From assembly GCA_937897085.1 (NCBI GenBank), contig CALCOR010000100.1, positions 1 through 13,198 on the forward strand: DNA of 13,198 nt, written 5' to 3'. The position numbers were made by a program, and so were the translations under genes. The stretch's first letter is position 1. The number at the start of each line of letters is the position of its first letter. This DNA is from an uncultured euryarchaeote. GTDB taxonomy: Archaea; Thermoplasmatota; Poseidoniia; Poseidoniales; Thalassarchaeaceae. The notes under the pieces are model-generated. The model did no database searches and was not told the DNA's origin. It worked only from the letters and a program-made list of their open reading frames with translations. Below, in pieces: positions 3,114 to 9,623 of the stretch.

Positions 3114-4881
3114 CTCGCCGCTTGTGACTCATCCAGATACTGATGAACAGCCCCGCCAAGATGACGGTCAGCATGTCTGGCATGAACCCGGGAACAACAC
3201 CGATCATTCCTGGCTCCGCGCCTTGTGCGACGACGTAGACCTCGTTGTTGCCCTCATCCTTCTCGTCGATCGCGTAATCGCCGTCGATCACGATTCGAAT
3301 GTCCAGTTCACCCGCGGAGAGAATGGTCACCGACCAGATCAGCGTCTCCTTCAGGTCGACCAGCGAACCGGAACTCAAGGTGCGCGTCTCGATAGTGGTC
3401 CAATTGACAGTGCTGTCCCTGTCGGCCGGCGCGGTCTGCAGGCTGACCGAAGGGCTTCCTGTCCACGGCTCGTTGCTGATGAGCACCGAGGTGATGTTCA
3501 CAATGCCACTACTACCGGCGCGCACGACCAGCCGATCCACCGAGGCGCTCTCCCAGGAGAGGTCGAGGCTCGGAAGCACGATGAAGTGCTGCACAGGTGA
3601 GGATGCGCTGTTGCTCGCATTGTCCTGCAGCACTGCTTTCAGGGACAGGTACTGCCCCTGCTTCGTGCTCCAGACGATCGATGAGGGAAGCGACGCTGTC
3701 TGTCCGGTGCCGAACTGAATCCAGGCATTGGTCAGGTCGGGTGGGTCGCCGATACCGTCTGCGTCGAATCCGTAGTAGAGTGTGGTGTTCGCCGCATCGA
3801 TGCCCGAGCGGTCGTCACTCGCCTGCACGCTCGCTGTGACTCCTCCGAAGAGGTTGGTGACGAGTTCAGGCAGCACCCAGCCACCGGCGACGGGATTCGT
3901 CTGGTCGACAGAGATGATCGCTGAGGTAGCGCTTCCAGCGTTGCCCAGAAGGTCCACAGCCCGGAATTCGATGGTTCGCACACCTTCCTGAAGTGCAATC
4001 GAGCCGCCTCCGGTGTTTCCGATGCCAGTCCATGTCGAGTCGGCTGAATCGCGCACTTCGTAGTGATCGATGCCGCAGCCGCCGTTGTCGCTCGCTCCGA
4101 TGTTCAGCCCACTGAACGAGAGCGAGGTGTCATCGGTCCATCCGCTGCCAACGGAGAGCGAAGGAGTTCCTACATCAGGACCGACTGTGTCGATGCCGAT
4201 GTAGAGGTCCGCGGTAGCTGAGTTCGACGCAGTATCGAACACCTTCAGTTGGGCTGTCCATGTACCCTGTGCCGGGAAGGAACCGGTGGTCCAGTCCCAG
4301 CGGTAGGCGAAGAAACCGGGCCCGTCATTGGAGGGCGCGCCAGGCCCAGGAACCCCCGTGAGAGCAGCATGGCTCAGGTGGGCGTCGGTGGCGTTCCAGG
4401 TGAACGACAGCACCCCGGTGCTCGGAATGTCAAACCAAGCGCGGTCAGAAATCGCCGACCCGCCCCCGAGGTCAGGCGAGAGCACGGCGAACTGCAGGTT
4501 GGCAGGATCGGTGTTGTCGACTGTGAAATTTCCACTCAGACTGGTTCCCAATGAAGCGCCACTGTCGAATCCTTCCATGCGCAGGCGGTAGTCACCGTCT
4601 ACCACTCCAGTGGTGTCCCAATTGTAGATCCATGGACTGGAACTCAGGTTCACGATGGTCGCCCAAACGCTGCCGTTCCATACCTCTAGCAACAGGGCAT
4701 CCACATCGGTGGTGTTGACCGCCACGATGGTGAACGAGCCACCGACGACATCACCTTCGTCCGGTCCGCTGCCGAAGTCTGGTGTGACAGCCCTTCCACC
4801 AGCAGCGATTGTGCTGGGGGCCAGCAGGCTAGCCAGCAGAACCAGAGCGAGCAGTATGACGCGTGTGGCGCAGCCTCTCAT
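3094..4881 (-). CDS. Secreted Ig-like repeat protein with C-terminal PGF-type membrane anchor
   Basis: A 595-aa exported protein of unknown binding partner. The start at 4881 gives a classic signal peptide: MRGCATR, then a leucine-rich core (8-21) and probable cleavage after AIA-like residues near 26-27. The longer reading frame to 4950 adds 23 residues that would bury the signal. The body consists of beta-sandwich modules typical of archaeal surface proteins: an Ig-like domain ending in GNFTVDNTDP, two modules with ATDAHLS/ASDNGGCGIDHYEV and AVDLLGNAG-type motifs, and a CARDB-like domain ending in DEKDEGNNEVYVV. Many N-x-S/T sites suggest N-glycosylation. The tail has Pro-Gly-Phe (564-566), a hydrophobic segment (567-584) and a basic end (HKRR), the layout of PGF-CTERM sorting signals processed by archaeosortases. 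It diverges from the CARDB/zinc-ribbon gene at 5021. Confidence 0.8.
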   Translation of the reverse strand: MRGCATRVILLALVLLASLLAPSTIAAGGRAVTPDFGSGPDEGDVVGGSFTIVAVNTTDVDALLLEVWNGSVWATIVNLSSSPWIYNWDTTGVVDGDYRLRMEGFDSGASLGTSLSGNFTVDNTDPANLQFAVLSPDLGGGSAISDRAWFDIPSTGVLSFTWNATDAHLSHAALTGVPGPGAPSNDGPGFFAYRWDWTTGSFPAQGTWTAQLKVFDTASNSATADLYIGIDTVGPDVGTPSLSVGSGWTDDTSLSFSGLNIGASDNGGCGIDHYEVRDSADSTWTGIGNTGGGSIALQEGVRTIEFRAVDLLGNAGSATSAIISVDQTNPVAGGWVLPELVTNLFGGVTASVQASDDRSGIDAANTTLYYGFDADGIGDPPDLTNAWIQFGTGQTASLPSSIVWSTKQGQYLSLKAVLQDNASNSASSPVQHFIVLPSLDLSWESASVDRLVVRAGSSGIVNITSVLISNEPWTGSPSVSLQTAPADRDSTVNWTTIETRTLSSGSLVDLKETLIWSVTILSAGELDIRIVIDGDYAIDEKDEGNNEVYVVAQGAEPGMIGVVPGFMPDMLTVILAGLFISIWMSHKRRVTLQTN

Positions 4882-5020
4882 GGTAACAGTGTCAGGACGC
4901 CTCGCCTCCGCTTCAACCCTTTCCACGAAGAACGAGGGGAATCGTCGCACATGAGGGCCTGAGAGCAGCGACCGGCGCGCGGGCGGGGGATTGAAGTGCT
5001 GCGCACTTCCTCATGCGTGC
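4882..5020. promoter_or_regulatory. Divergent promoter region between two surface-protein genes
   Basis: This 139-bp gap must hold promoters for both flanking genes. TTGAAG occurs facing each way: at 4991-4996 on plus, centred about 27 nt before the ATG at 5021, and at 4911-4916 on minus, centred about 32 nt before the ATG at 4881. Both are plausible but weak TATA-like elements. A perfect 7-bp hairpin (GAAGTGC 4993-4999, loop 5000-5002, GCACTTC 5003-5009) overlaps the plus-side element and may be an operator or a coincidental fold. Confidence 0.4.
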
Positions 5021-7732
5021 ATGCGCAGAGCGTCAGCCTTGGTTCTCCTGCTGTTGCTCATTCCGAGTTTACTCGCTCTCGCATCCGTGTCTGGAGAGGT
5101 TGCGGGTGACATCGTATTCTCCAGCGACAGCATCTCGTTGGCATCGAATAACCCGACAGAAGGCGATGACCTCGGCATGACGATCACGCTCACGAACAAT
5201 GCGACCGTTGAGGCCAGTGGCGTGCAGATATCCCTGCATCCTGACTCGACAGCCAACGCGGCGTTCCACTCTGAAACGGTCGTGGTGCCCGCCTCTGGAT
5301 TTCTGCAGGTCAGTGCGACCTGGCTGAATGTTCCGTTTGGAACACACCTTGTTGTCCTTCAGGTCACCCACTCGAGTGAAACCGCCTCCGTCAACAGGTC
5401 GTTCACTGCCTCCGGGTTGGCGGATCTGGTGGTCACATCGCTACAGATATCTCCCGCATCAGGCATGCACACCAACGACCTCGTGGACATCACTTGCGAC
5501 ATCAAAAATCAGGGTAATGCCGCCGCCGCGTCAAGCCATCTGCTTCTCGAACTCGACGGAATCTTGCTGGCGGAGTTGTCGGTCGCGATGCTCCCTACGA
5601 ATCAGACGGTGCAGGTGTCAACTTCGTTCAACGCCCCATCCTCAGGGGTTCACGAGTTGATTGCCACAGCGAACTCGCAGTCTGCAGACGGTGTCACCGA
5701 GAGTGATTCATCGAACAACAACAACGTACAACCAGTCCAATTCACTGTTCTTCCAGACCCTGATTACCACCACCATCCGCAGTCGGACCCAGATGTGCTG
5801 GTGTCGACCGCGACCGACGCGCTGGCAGGACCGTGGACGGTGTCCGGTCAGATCCTCAGGATGGGTGGGGAGGGTGACACCTCCATCGAGGTCGCAATCT
5901 CGGTCGTCGAGGCGGGCGGTGACAGGCTGGTCCGGCTGTTCTTCGTCAACTTCAGTGAAGCGGAGCCGCTGGCAAGCTGGTCGGAGTCCCTGACCACTCA
6001 GGAGTTGCAGATCAGTGATCCAGGCGATTACACCCTTCTGATCGATATCGATCCGGATGACATGGTGGCCCAGTCGATTACGTTCAACGATGTGACCACG
6101 ACCACGCTCACGCTACACGCCGAGCCCAACGCGGTCGTGTCGGGGTTCGCTCCGGCATCGAGCAGCACGGTGATGCCCGGAGATCCTGTTTCGTTCAACG
6201 TGACGGTCACCAATGTCGGCATATTGGCGGTGTTCGGCTCGCTGCACGCAACCTTCGATGGCACTCAACTCACCTCCAAACAGGGGCTGGCGCTTCCACC
6301 CGGGTCTGAGAGCACCTACACGTTCACCGCAACGGCTTCAGGAGATGCGAACGAGGTGCTGCAGTTCATATCCACCTGGGAGGCATCGGAAGGCTCCTAT
6401 GACTCAGCCAGCGATGACAACACTGCCACCGGCAGCGTGACGCTGCGCACTGACCTGCGCCTGCGCTTCCTGCAGGGCACAGAATCGTGGTCCCCGAATC
6501 CACCGCTGCGGCTGGGAGAGACCTATTCTTACACGATTGACATCATCTCTGACGACGGCTCCGGAACAGAGACGTTCACCTGCCTCGACCACACCCATGG
6601 AAAGGAGTTCGGCACTCGCACGCTCACGTTCTCCGAATCCGGTGATTCCGCCACCATGCTGTGTGAATTCACTGCCGAGCGCACAGGATCGTTCGAACTC
6701 TACGTGCTGCCCGATGGTGACACCGTAGCAGCCTGGACCTCTCCATGGTCGGTGACCGCGAGCGGCGTGGTGGTTCAGAACGAAGGTGGCGGCGGCTGGG
6801 GCGGCATCCTGCTGTTGTTCGCTGGCGCCCTGTTCCTCGGCGGAGTGCTGCTCGCTGCCGTGGTGCTCACCCGCGCAGGTGAGAGTGATGCAGAGCGAGA
6901 GACTTACGATTACTGTCCTGCATGCGAAGGAGAACTGACAGGAGAGGAGGACCAATGCCCTCACTGCGACTTCGACCTTCTCGAAGGATTGTCGCAGTTC
7001 CACGACTGTGAGGAGTGTGAGGCCTCCATCCCCGACTTGATGGAGCACTGCCCCTACTGCGGGGCGACGCAGGACATCAGCGATTACTACGAGAGGCGGG
7101 TGCGCAAGGAGGTGCCAATCGCCTCGGACCCTGAGCCAGAAGAGACCGAGGATGGTGAGGATGAGGATGACGATGAGGTCGTCCTCGGCACCGAGGATTT
7201 CTCGGAACAGTTGGAGTCGATGGGCTGGAGCGAGGAGCAGTATGAGAGCGAGTGGGACGATCAGTTGTCACGGGCCGAGGTGGAACTTGACGAAGCCGCT
7301 GCCTGGCACGCTACTCAGGAGGAGTTGACAGAAGAGGAGACAGAGGACACGATCACCGAAACCTCCCTGCGTCGTTCCGTCGAAGAGGAACGGGTCGACC
7401 TCGATGCGATGATTGGCAAGAAGGATGAGCGCCGCCATCTGCTCGACGAACAGGTCGACCTCACAGCATCTGATGCGGACATCCGCGCCGACATCTACGA
7501 CATCACCGGTGAGGACGGAGTGCTGCCCGGAGACGTGGTCAAAGTGGACATGGCTCCTGACTCCATGACCGGCGGCGAAGGCATGAAGGAAACCCACGAA
7601 GACGTTGATTTCGGTGTCGGGGATGACACGCCCGTCTCAAAGGGGCCATCTCCTAGTGAAGGGGGTCGCGGGAAGCAACGACGGACACCCAGCCGCAGGA
7701 AGCGGGACGGCGATGATTCCGACGCCTCCTGA
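5021..7732 (+). CDS. CARDB-repeat single-pass membrane protein with cytoplasmic double zinc ribbon
   Basis: A 903-aa type I membrane protein. The ATG at 5021 begins a clean signal peptide (MRRASALVLLLLLIPSLLAL); the frame extends to a TTG at 4991, which adds only unlikely residues. Outside the cell, at least three CARDB-like beta modules lie near residues 25-130, 133-245 and 365-475, with TLTNNATVEASG, DIKNQGNAAAAS and TVTNVGILAVFG motifs; further beta-rich sequence runs to about 585. After a glycine-rich hinge comes one membrane segment (about 594-617). The cytoplasmic side starts with two zinc ribbons: C632-x2-C635 with C646-x2-C649, and C663-x2-C666 with C677-x2-C680. About 220 residues of acidic, probably disordered sequence and a basic end (KQRRTPSRRKR) follow. 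The architecture suggests a sensor or adaptor linking the surface to a cytoplasmic partner, but no function is established. Confidence 0.82.
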   Translation: MRRASALVLLLLLIPSLLALASVSGEVAGDIVFSSDSISLASNNPTEGDDLGMTITLTNNATVEASGVQISLHPDSTANAAFHSETVVVPASGFLQVSATWLNVPFGTHLVVLQVTHSSETASVNRSFTASGLADLVVTSLQISPASGMHTNDLVDITCDIKNQGNAAAASSHLLLELDGILLAELSVAMLPTNQTVQVSTSFNAPSSGVHELIATANSQSADGVTESDSSNNNNVQPVQFTVLPDPDYHHHPQSDPDVLVSTATDALAGPWTVSGQILRMGGEGDTSIEVAISVVEAGGDRLVRLFFVNFSEAEPLASWSESLTTQELQISDPGDYTLLIDIDPDDMVAQSITFNDVTTTTLTLHAEPNAVVSGFAPASSSTVMPGDPVSFNVTVTNVGILAVFGSLHATFDGTQLTSKQGLALPPGSESTYTFTATASGDANEVLQFISTWEASEGSYDSASDDNTATGSVTLRTDLRLRFLQGTESWSPNPPLRLGETYSYTIDIISDDGSGTETFTCLDHTHGKEFGTRTLTFSESGDSATMLCEFTAERTGSFELYVLPDGDTVAAWTSPWSVTASGVVVQNEGGGGWGGILLLFAGALFLGGVLLAAVVLTRAGESDAERETYDYCPACEGELTGEEDQCPHCDFDLLEGLSQFHDCEECEASIPDLMEHCPYCGATQDISDYYERRVRKEVPIASDPEPEETEDGEDEDDDEVVLGTEDFSEQLESMGWSEEQYESEWDDQLSRAEVELDEAAAWHATQEELTEEETEDTITETSLRRSVEEERVDLDAMIGKKDERRHLLDEQVDLTASDADIRADIYDITGEDGVLPGDVVKVDMAPDSMTGGEGMKETHEDVDFGVGDDTPVSKGPSPSEGGRGKQRRTPSRRKRDGDDSDAS

Positions 7733-7793
7733 GCGGCTGGTGGCGGGCATGTCAGAGCAACGCCTATGATTGAGCAGTACACATCGGTGCGGG

Positions 7794-9011
7794 ATGGTCG
7801 GGTCAGAGCATGGATTCGAGGCCCGCGAGGACGGAAGCGAAGTCGACCCTCCTCGACCCAACACCCGCGGCATCTGGATTGATGCCGAGGGACATCCTTT
7901 ACCGCTGTCGGCCAGTGACTTGGAGCGGCATACGTACTGCCCGCTGTCATGGAAACTCTCCCGTGAGGGGGTGGGTGGTGAAGGGAAGGAGCTTGAACGG
8001 GGAATCGACAAGCATCAGAAGATTCACGAGGCGATACAGGATTACCATGTCGCTGACCTGAAGGCACGTCGAGAGATGATCATCTGGACATGGTGGTTCG
8101 CTGTGGTCGTCACCCTGTCGGTGGACGCAGCCGCCTTCTTCTTCGTTGGTGAGGGAGTCGTCGACGAACAGAACACCACCCGGCTCGCCCGCTACCTCGC
8201 CCTGCTCGCCCTCGTCTGGTTGCTGCTCGCCATACTCCTGCTCGCTCTTCCCTGGCGCCGCTTCATCGGTCGTCCGTTCGGGCTCGCCCAACCCCCCAAG
8301 TTCGAGGAGTACGATCTGCGAGCCGACGAATTGGAGGACCTGAAGTTGCAAGTCCCGCCAACAGGTGGCTGGATGGAGGCGGGACGCACTGAGGTGTGGC
8401 TGATGCTGGGCAGCGTCACCATCGCCTTGCACGCGTTCGCGCTGTTCAACGCCCGCGAGCGCACCGTCGCCACGTTCGTGCTGTTCGTGCTGGCGCTCGC
8501 TTGGACGTTCATCGCTGCATGGCGGCTGCACCGCGGCCTGTTGGCCACCTTCGAGGCGGAGTCAGCCCGGAATACCTCTGGGATGAAGGGCATGGGTGCG
8601 CTCGCCTATTCTGATGACCAGAAGGAATCCGGGTTGCTGGTGGACGAAGCCACTGGACTGCGCGGCAGGCCGGACCAGGTGGTGATCATCGATGGGCAGT
8701 ACATCCCTGTTGAGCAGAAGACAGGCAAGGTACCATTAGAGCCTCACCAATCACACAAGATGCAACTGCTCGCCTACCTGAAACTCGTGTCGGCCACCAC
8801 CAATTCACGCCCTTCCTATGGGATACTGCGCTACAGCGATGACACACTGTTCCAGGTTCCGTGGACCGAGGACGAGGAGCATCTGTTGCTGGAGAGCATC
8901 TGTGAGATTCAGCGGTTGATGGTGGAGGGGGGCGCGCAGCGGAACCACGAACGTCCGGGCAAGTGCCGCAACTGCTCCCGCCGTCACTCTTGCAGCGACT
9001 CGCTCGTGTAG
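7794..9011 (+). CDS. Cas4/RecB-like PD-(D/E)XK nuclease with four inserted membrane helices
   Basis: A 405-aa protein combining a Cas4/RecB-type nuclease with a membrane domain. Nuclease features: SASDLERHTYCP with C49 near the N-terminus, GRPD with D294, E307-Q308-K309 as the ExK motif, QLLAY (Q324, Y328) as the QxxxY motif, and a C-terminal cluster C391, C394, C400. One N-terminal plus three C-terminal cysteines is the pattern that binds a 4Fe-4S cluster in Cas4 and AddB relatives. Between C49 and D294 lie four hydrophobic segments at about 95-117, 134-154, 201-219 and 225-243. They form two hairpins separated by a polar stretch, so the nuclease should face the cytoplasm at the membrane. 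The start is the ATG at 7794, with CTATGATTG centred about 27 nt upstream; a TTG at 7770 is possible and an in-frame TGA at 7767 blocks anything longer. No cas genes or repeats are nearby. DNA end processing at the membrane is inference. Confidence 0.82.
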   Translation: MVGSEHGFEAREDGSEVDPPRPNTRGIWIDAEGHPLPLSASDLERHTYCPLSWKLSREGVGGEGKELERGIDKHQKIHEAIQDYHVADLKARREMIIWTWWFAVVVTLSVDAAAFFFVGEGVVDEQNTTRLARYLALLALVWLLLAILLLALPWRRFIGRPFGLAQPPKFEEYDLRADELEDLKLQVPPTGGWMEAGRTEVWLMLGSVTIALHAFALFNARERTVATFVLFVLALAWTFIAAWRLHRGLLATFEAESARNTSGMKGMGALAYSDDQKESGLLVDEATGLRGRPDQVVIIDGQYIPVEQKTGKVPLEPHQSHKMQLLAYLKLVSATTNSRPSYGILRYSDDTLFQVPWTEDEEHLLLESICEIQRLMVEGGAQRNHERPGKCRNCSRRHSCSDSLV

Positions 9012-9014
9012 TTC

Positions 9015-9623
9015 TCACATCGGGACGCACTCAGTCCCTCGGGGCTGTTCAGGGTAGAGAATGCAGGGACGCACGACGTTGACGATGACCTCGAACTCGT
9101 CGTGGAACGAGAACTGCTCGATTGGCGCTGTGAGACCATATCCCTGCGCCTCGACCTCGAGTACCCAGACACCAGGTTTGAACGGGGCGTAGCGTCGTTC
9201 TATTGGTGGATAGTGATCAGAGGTCGCGTTCTCCTCCCAGAACGGTTCATCGGTGTTGATGTTGGCTCCTGGTTCCCACAATCGGGCGTGGACGTAGCGG
9301 ATGGAGCCTGTGAGATTGTTCAGCCCGAACTCTCCTATCTCATCGAGATCCATCTGCACGCGGAAGTAGATGCTGATCTCCTTGACTTGTTCGTCGAACA
9401 GGATGTCCTGCGGTGCAGGCCTGTGGATGATCGCCTCGAGCTCGGTTGAATTGGAACTGAATGTGTGCTGGAACGAGTAGGACTCAGTCTGCTCAGAAGT
9501 CGTGGGAGTACCGCGCGACCATTCCATCAACTCCCGCGTCGCTACAAGCCCTAGACAGCCGCTGGTACTGCTCGCGAGCAGGATGAGCAGCATCGCGCTG
9601 ACGAGGAAGCGTGTCCGTCTCAT
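9015..9623 (-). CDS. Small lipoprotein of unknown function
   Basis: A 202-aa exported protein. With the ATG at 9623 it starts MRRTRFL, has a hydrophobic core (6-17) and a lipobox ending STSGC, with C23 the likely lipidated residue. The frame extends upstream to 9800 with no signal-like sequence, so the shorter start is preferred. The mature part looks like one beta-sandwich domain (EISIYFRVQMDLDE, GVWVLEVEAQGYG, DEFEVIVNVV) with several N-x-S/T sites and two C-terminal cysteines (C187, C199) that may form a disulphide. I do not recognise the family. It converges with the membrane nuclease gene, the two stop codons being 3 bp apart. A GTTGAAAT on the minus strand at 9647-9654 is centred about 27 nt before the start. 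Confidence 0.75.
   Translation of the reverse strand: MRRTRFLVSAMLLILLASSTSGCLGLVATRELMEWSRGTPTTSEQTESYSFQHTFSSNSTELEAIIHRPAPQDILFDEQVKEISIYFRVQMDLDEIGEFGLNNLTGSIRYVHARLWEPGANINTDEPFWEENATSDHYPPIERRYAPFKPGVWVLEVEAQGYGLTAPIEQFSFHDEFEVIVNVVRPCILYPEQPRGTECVPM

Follow-up and report, generated by a model that had tools for sequence, protein, structure and literature searches.

Why does a Cas4-type nuclease carry membrane helices in the middle of its catalytic fold, and on which DNA would such an enzyme act? The question is raised by a gene at positions 7794 to 9011 of a 13,198-nucleotide stretch of DNA (the window) from an uncultured euryarchaeote of the Thalassarchaeaceae (Thermoplasmatota, Poseidoniia, Poseidoniales; GenBank assembly GCA_937897085.1, contig CALCOR010000100.1). 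An initial annotation, made from the sequence alone, described the product as a Cas4/RecB-like nuclease with four membrane helices inside its fold. The motifs, the helices and the fold are borne out by computation; the protein is not a lone oddity, being one form among relatives that differ in helix number and in part are encoded by two genes. We propose that it is a membrane-anchored Cas4-type nuclease with a domain made of two halves and with replaceable hairpins, acting on DNA at the inner face of the membrane. To this statement as a whole we would give a probability of roughly 45%; the membrane-anchored Cas4 fold taken alone is much more likely than either an uptake role or a repair role. 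The gene and its parts are as follows.

7794..9011, + strand: gene for the membrane-embedded Cas4-like nuclease, an open frame of 405 amino acids (aa) with matches to PF12705 and PF01930
7908..8072, + strand: N-terminal part of the nuclease domain, residues 39-93, with C49 (7938-7940) and motif I, G70...H74 (8013-8015); 94/94 in the phylum relatives, aligned to Cas4 in the structure model
8076..8150, + strand: predicted transmembrane helix 1, about residues 95-119, from hydropathy; in the model continuous with the motif I helix (65-119)
8193..8249, + strand: predicted transmembrane helix 2, residues 134-152, from hydropathy
8250..8390, + strand: loop between the two hairpins, residues 153-199; mean length 48 residues in the order versus 18 elsewhere
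8391..8447, + strand: predicted transmembrane helix 3, residues 200-218, from hydropathy
8463..8519, + strand: predicted transmembrane helix 4, residues 224-242, from hydropathy; in the model it extends as a stalk to residue 262
8598..8933, + strand: catalytic core, residues 269-380, with GRPD294, E307-x-K309 and Q324xxxY328, from Pfam, conservation and structure match
8964..8993, + strand: C391, C394 and C400, expected iron-sulphur ligands together with C49; 94/94

A Cas4-type active site divided by a membrane insertion

The reading frame is single and uninterrupted, running for 405 codons from an ATG at 7794; an in-frame TTG at 7770 is a second possible start, and the orthologues align to 7794. 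In Pfam, PDDEXK_1 (PF12705) covers residues 287-400 with 44.9 bits (cut-off 22), and Cas_Cas4 (PF01930) covers residues 290-400 with 33.3 bits, above the curated cut-off of 22.7 that defines this domain family. The PF01930 alignment takes in only profile positions 53-158 of 160, the N-terminal part being set apart by the insertion. Together with these scores, motifs I (GxxxH), II (GxxD-like, D294), III (ExK) and QxxxY place the protein among the PD-(D/E)XK nucleases of RecB type. It does not qualify as a CRISPR-associated (clustered regularly interspaced short palindromic repeats) Cas4 by the NCBIfam equivalog TIGR00372, where it reaches 58.9 bits against a cut-off of 65, a model matched by 94 of 94 phylum relatives at E <= 1e-5. 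PADLOC matches are mainly to Cas4 models, with two to DruK models.

The active site is conserved. D294, E307-x-K309, Q324xxxY328, C49 and C391/C394/C400 had all been placed correctly in the initial annotation, and these nine residues are unchanged in 46 of 46 order-level orthologues. It had also held that every catalytic landmark was thereby listed, which overlooks motif I: G70 and H74, in the N-terminal half ahead of the helices, are each present in 94 of 94 phylum relatives. Across those relatives C49, D294, K309, Y328, C391, C394 and C400 never vary, and Q324 is kept in 93. Homologues lacking D294, E307 or K309 had been named as a test of the proposal; the only departure at these positions is at E307, which is replaced by D in 3 relatives and kept in the other 91. 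The pattern of one N-terminal and three C-terminal cysteines known as the iron staple is likewise found in 94/94, and C391, C394 and C400 align with the C-terminal cysteines of Pcal_0546 and of the Cas4 in 8d3l. By analogy, we infer that the enzyme cuts single-stranded DNA in a metal-dependent manner and holds an iron-sulphur cluster. As far as the available text of the Pcal_0546 study goes, DNA cutting by that protein persisted after loss of the cluster (PMC4176176), so the cluster may serve structure. The same observation, with the invariance of the four cysteines (94/94), would suit a sensor of redox state or of the membrane that relies on the iron-sulphur domain and has given up DNA cutting. 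We consider such a sensor very improbable, since the catalytic residues are conserved equally with the cysteines and a recognised extra domain is fused in one member only (TRAM, L103).

The predicted model matches Cas4 chains across residues 30 to 405; both halves of the sequence therefore belong to one Cas4 domain, the outcome that a structure check proposed earlier was meant to look for. EXO5, Dna2, AdnA and AddB are also among its structural matches. Between the halves, C49 and D294 are 245 residues apart, and the four hydrophobic segments expected between the first cysteine and the catalytic core are indeed predicted there, with mean hydropathies of 1.65-2.92. Among 240 relatives, the yield of two protein searches, four helices are predicted in 222, three in 8 and five in 3; conservation of hydrophobic helices across the family marks it as a predicted integral membrane protein. 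Compared with locus L032, the window gene has 0.061 nonsynonymous and 0.272 synonymous substitutions per site over 210 codons, which are part of the gene. Given this comparison and the 222 four-helix relatives, a Cas4-like frame with four helices is more than chance.

To orient the helices, lysine and arginine were compared by density, since their plain count (222 of 222) is biased by loop length. Of 102 four-helix proteins outside the order, 101 have them denser on the side predicted to be inside (means 0.237 inside, 0.056 outside), but only 54 of 120 do within it.

Modular hairpins and a natural two-gene form

The hairpins are modular. In the 102 four-helix proteins from outside the Poseidoniales, hairpin 1 is homologous to hairpin 2 (hhalign probability 98.8, against 1.1 and 0.8 for reversed controls), which means that duplication enlarged the membrane part. 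Poseidoniales hairpins compared with those elsewhere score 85.8 and 55.8 for like pairs, and 75.9 and 32.7 for unlike pairs. Relatives longer than 440 aa (n = 7) have eight predicted helices in six cases and nine in one; an eight-helix member at L103 (7142-8887) carries a C-terminal TRAM (RNA-binding) domain at 41.6 bits (cut-off 21). At the other extreme, family f3 of the same class, probably Marine Group III, has proteins of about 280 aa with two helices in three of four loci, the fourth having one over threshold. In genus g20 about 95 extra residues lie between helices 1 and 2 (L066 874-2331, L067 844-2328); no Pfam family comes close to its cut-off in them, and the stretch is compatible with a loop on the outside.

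Smaller relatives came from a size-limited search that returned 259 proteins, of which the 120 listed give the following figures. Two helices with the N-terminal cysteine pattern occur in 17, and 86 have a single helix, a length of 150-200 aa and no such pattern of cysteines. Thermoplasmataceae, Cuniculiplasma, Methanothrix, Chloroflexia and Bellilinea are among the names of this single-helix group.

In families f16 and f27 and at one f6 locus the profile matches are split over two adjacent frames. The N-terminal half (83-113 aa, nine loci) has the first cysteine, motif I and one helix at its end, and the C-terminal half has one helix, the core and the three cysteines; at L160 the C-terminal half has its helix ahead of the first standard start codon. 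Thirty further loci were then considered, less L204 (a fused gene) and L207 (no C-terminal-half frame found, the match lying at the contig end). In 28 of 28 usable loci, five of which also served to build the model of the N-terminal half, that half precedes, on the same strand, a C-terminal-half frame with a helix; its own helix comes within 6 residues of its end, and the two stops are 509-551 bp apart. With a helix in each of two neighbouring frames, the break in the gene falls, as read from its sequence, within a hairpin's outer loop, which divides the active site and the cysteine set between two chains. The earlier concern that the frame might join two separate genes thus has a double answer: there is one gene in the window, and there are two in other families of the phylum.

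Inheritance, neighbours and the choice between roles

The source genome (85% complete, 1.87 Mb), of which the window is contig C100, has a single match to the nuclease protein. Close proteins and loci bear the names Poseidoniales, Thalassarchaeaceae or Thermoplasmatota, and matches occur in 177/292 genomes at the level of the order, 193/292 at that of the class and 245/389 at that of the phylum. One genome (G022, contig C6, 85786-86948) has an extra, broken-looking copy with in-frame stops beside an intact one.

As the initial annotation had stated, no CRISPR gene is in view: a Pfam scan of the window proteins shows no cas gene except the nuclease. Cas1 has no match in the 85% complete source genome, and a CRISPR role was set aside for this genome for want of both Cas1 and cas neighbours. 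Sequence and fold would still allow a Cas4 of CRISPR adaptation that has been left without its neighbours and acts in trans; of the 292 phylum genomes considered, 65 are Cas1-positive and none of these is labelled as the same class or nearer, so we regard this as scarcely credible. A Cas4-type gene outside CRISPR context with vertical inheritance corresponds instead to what has been called solo-Cas4, that is, Cas4 genes outside CRISPR loci (Hudaiberdiev et al. 2017, PMC5704561). A viral or mobile gene was rejected as an explanation: phage records gave one partial match (56% cover) and plasmids five (67-76% cover), and two pattern-based scans of viral contigs gave no confirmed relative.

Two neighbours of the nuclease in the window are of particular interest.

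4991..7732, + strand: exported CARDB protein, 913 aa, with a transmembrane segment and zinc ribbons; present in 21/21 nuclease loci of the order
9015..9605, - strand: lipoprotein gene, tail to tail with the nuclease; kept in 12/13 genomes without the nuclease

The nuclease, the CARDB protein, the lipoprotein, RpsB, Dus and two helix-turn-helix (HTH) genes stand together in 21 of 21 order loci; in 20 of the 21, all but L050, they are joined by eIF1A, RIO1, a KH protein and an exported protein of Ig-like type. The nuclease neighbourhood in the window thus consists of housekeeping genes and exported proteins and is not a defence island. The 20 other order loci have the gene order RpsB, nuclease, lipoprotein; the window has the last two genes inverted (7794-9605), which sets the lipoprotein beside RpsB. 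A tRNA-Gly called by ARAGORN at 3722-3807 lies inside the coding region of an exported protein on the other strand and is probably a false positive.

Within the family, 20 of 115 listed genomes have no match; they belong to genera g2, g3, g4, g6, g8 and g10 and measure 1.2-1.6 Mb. In 8 of 8 inspected nuclease-less genomes the lipoprotein, RpsB, Dus and both HTH genes follow in order with the nuclease absent, and in nuclease-less relatives RIO1 and KH occur together in 10 of 10 inspected regions and eIF1A in 9 of 10. Retention of the lipoprotein led us to reject it as an obligate partner. The CARDB protein may be a partner: besides its constant co-presence, it has no match in 11 and a weak match in 2 of 13 nuclease-lacking relatives, but nuclease and CARDB protein may have been lost in one event, and their joint absence may reflect no more than that.

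A constitutive membrane-bound defence nuclease, serving solely as an innate means of keeping out viruses and plasmids, would agree with the PADLOC Cas4 and DruK models and with the proposal that solo-Cas4 acts in defence or repair, made in the available text of that study (PMC5704561). We judge it improbable, given a single copy in a conserved place in the order and no defence-island context in the loci examined, where selected neighbours were scanned with Pfam.

Outside the order, the surroundings were surveyed at 62 loci in 32 families (two of the loci are from the order itself), with Pfam run on selected neighbours only. At 10 of 62 loci (L089-L093, L101, L215, L218, L219, L224), in 6 of 32 families, a TPD (PF14811) gene stands at position -1, co-directional, with a gap of -14 to 58 bp; Pfam was run on 4 of these 10. 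Eight families also share a conserved, convergent GlmS-like gene, so gene order there is partly inherited. Further neighbours are an NTPase_1 gene, Trm1, L15e and, by sequence reading, an ABCE1-like gene. Predicted exported LTD-PLD nuclease genes adjoin the membrane nuclease at L086, L087, L098 and L225.

These surroundings bear on another role for the same protein, that of a membrane-located repair or replication nuclease processing DNA ends of the cell's own chromosome at its contact with the membrane, like EXO5, Dna2 and AddB/AdnA, with a TPD nuclease as partner in some lineages. Against it, enzymes of this kind seldom have a membrane anchor, and an essential repair gene would not be expected to disappear from a group of relatives; with the GlmS-like gene also conserved, the gene order may be merely inherited. 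In its favour are the structural matches to EXO5, Dna2, AdnA and AddB, vertical inheritance in a conserved block, and the TPD gene directly upstream, whose human relative C15ORF41 is described, in the available text, as a PD-(D/E)XK protein similar to Holliday junction resolvases in which no nuclease activity was found (PMC7261414). On balance we hold this role to be rather unlikely, though the likeliest of the alternatives.

A proposed membrane-anchored nuclease and its meaning

We therefore return to the membrane-anchored nuclease acting on DNA at the inner membrane face. The enzyme would be a PD-(D/E)XK nuclease of Cas4 type that probably holds an iron-sulphur cluster; the cytoplasmic membrane would anchor it, and its nuclease domain would lie on the cytosolic face. 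Two sequence halves would form the domain, each borne on a long helix emerging from the membrane, the first supplying C49 and the motif I histidine and the second D/ExK, QxxxY and three cysteines. One, two or four helical hairpins would make up an exchangeable membrane part; where the outer loop of a hairpin is cut, two single-pass proteins should pair to complete one active site and one cluster. Position and context faintly suggest work on incoming DNA: the enzyme may destroy or trim DNA ends at the inner membrane face, above all those of DNA from outside, whether food, transforming or injected.

Some observations weigh against this proposal. Within the order only 54 of 120 proteins have lysine and arginine denser inside (means 0.123 inside, 0.132 outside), so that topology there rests on homology and the even number of helices. 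Model residues 163-191 have a pLDDT (predicted local distance difference test) under 50 and are unreliable. LTD-PLD genes occur in 4 loci and only 3 of 32 families (Pfam was run on 3 of the 4), and steady inheritance in a housekeeping block with loss in smaller genomes is compatible with many roles.

A little more tentatively, we suggest a whole unrecognised family of membrane-assembled nucleases, in which a modular unit of one, two or four hairpins divides the Cas4 fold and a large part of whose members would be two single-pass proteins sharing one iron-sulphur cluster and active site. The C-terminal-half form would reach Methanothrix and Chloroflexota, where proteins filed as plain Cas4 may be half enzymes with a small unannotated partner, and the common job would be destroying DNA at entry.

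Among known systems, uptake nucleases of the ComEC/EndA type are membrane-fixed, degrade incoming DNA and act on the outer side. The likeness is one of working, a membrane-fixed nuclease that degrades DNA on its way in; the folds are unrelated, and the domain is here predicted inside. The iron staple nucleases EXO5, Dna2 and AddB/AdnA, of which AddB, AdnA and Dna2 are helicase-linked, lack membrane helices in the fold. CRISPR adaptation Cas4 (7mi4, 8d3l) differs from the present case, where the genome has no Cas1, about 180 residues are inserted in the fold and the family has a two- to eight-helix membrane part. SSO0001 and Pcal_0546 (4ic1, 4r5q) are, in the available text, DUF83 proteins of 171-221 aa without a membrane part (PMC4176176). 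Closest is solo-Cas4, likewise a Cas4-type domain outside cas loci, mostly vertically inherited and occurring in CRISPR-less genomes; the available text of that study names many Chloroflexi as carriers and makes no mention of membrane helices or two-gene halves, "membrane" appearing once, in a gene name (PMC5704561). No paper on a membrane or transmembrane Cas4 was found by phrase, title or abstract start in the open-licence literature.

Cas4-like nucleases occur widely outside CRISPR, and what they do there has yet to be settled. Relatives with two, four or eight helices, or in the form of two one-helix proteins, point to a little-noticed class of membrane-bound DNA nucleases. That the place in the membrane is kept despite changing helix number and gene splitting is a strong hint of action on DNA at the cell border, and the two-gene form makes the idea directly testable, because neither half should work alone. 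If it is true, some database entries named "CRISPR-associated Cas4" from Thermoplasmatota, and perhaps from Methanothrix and Chloroflexota, would be membrane proteins and in part half-enzymes.
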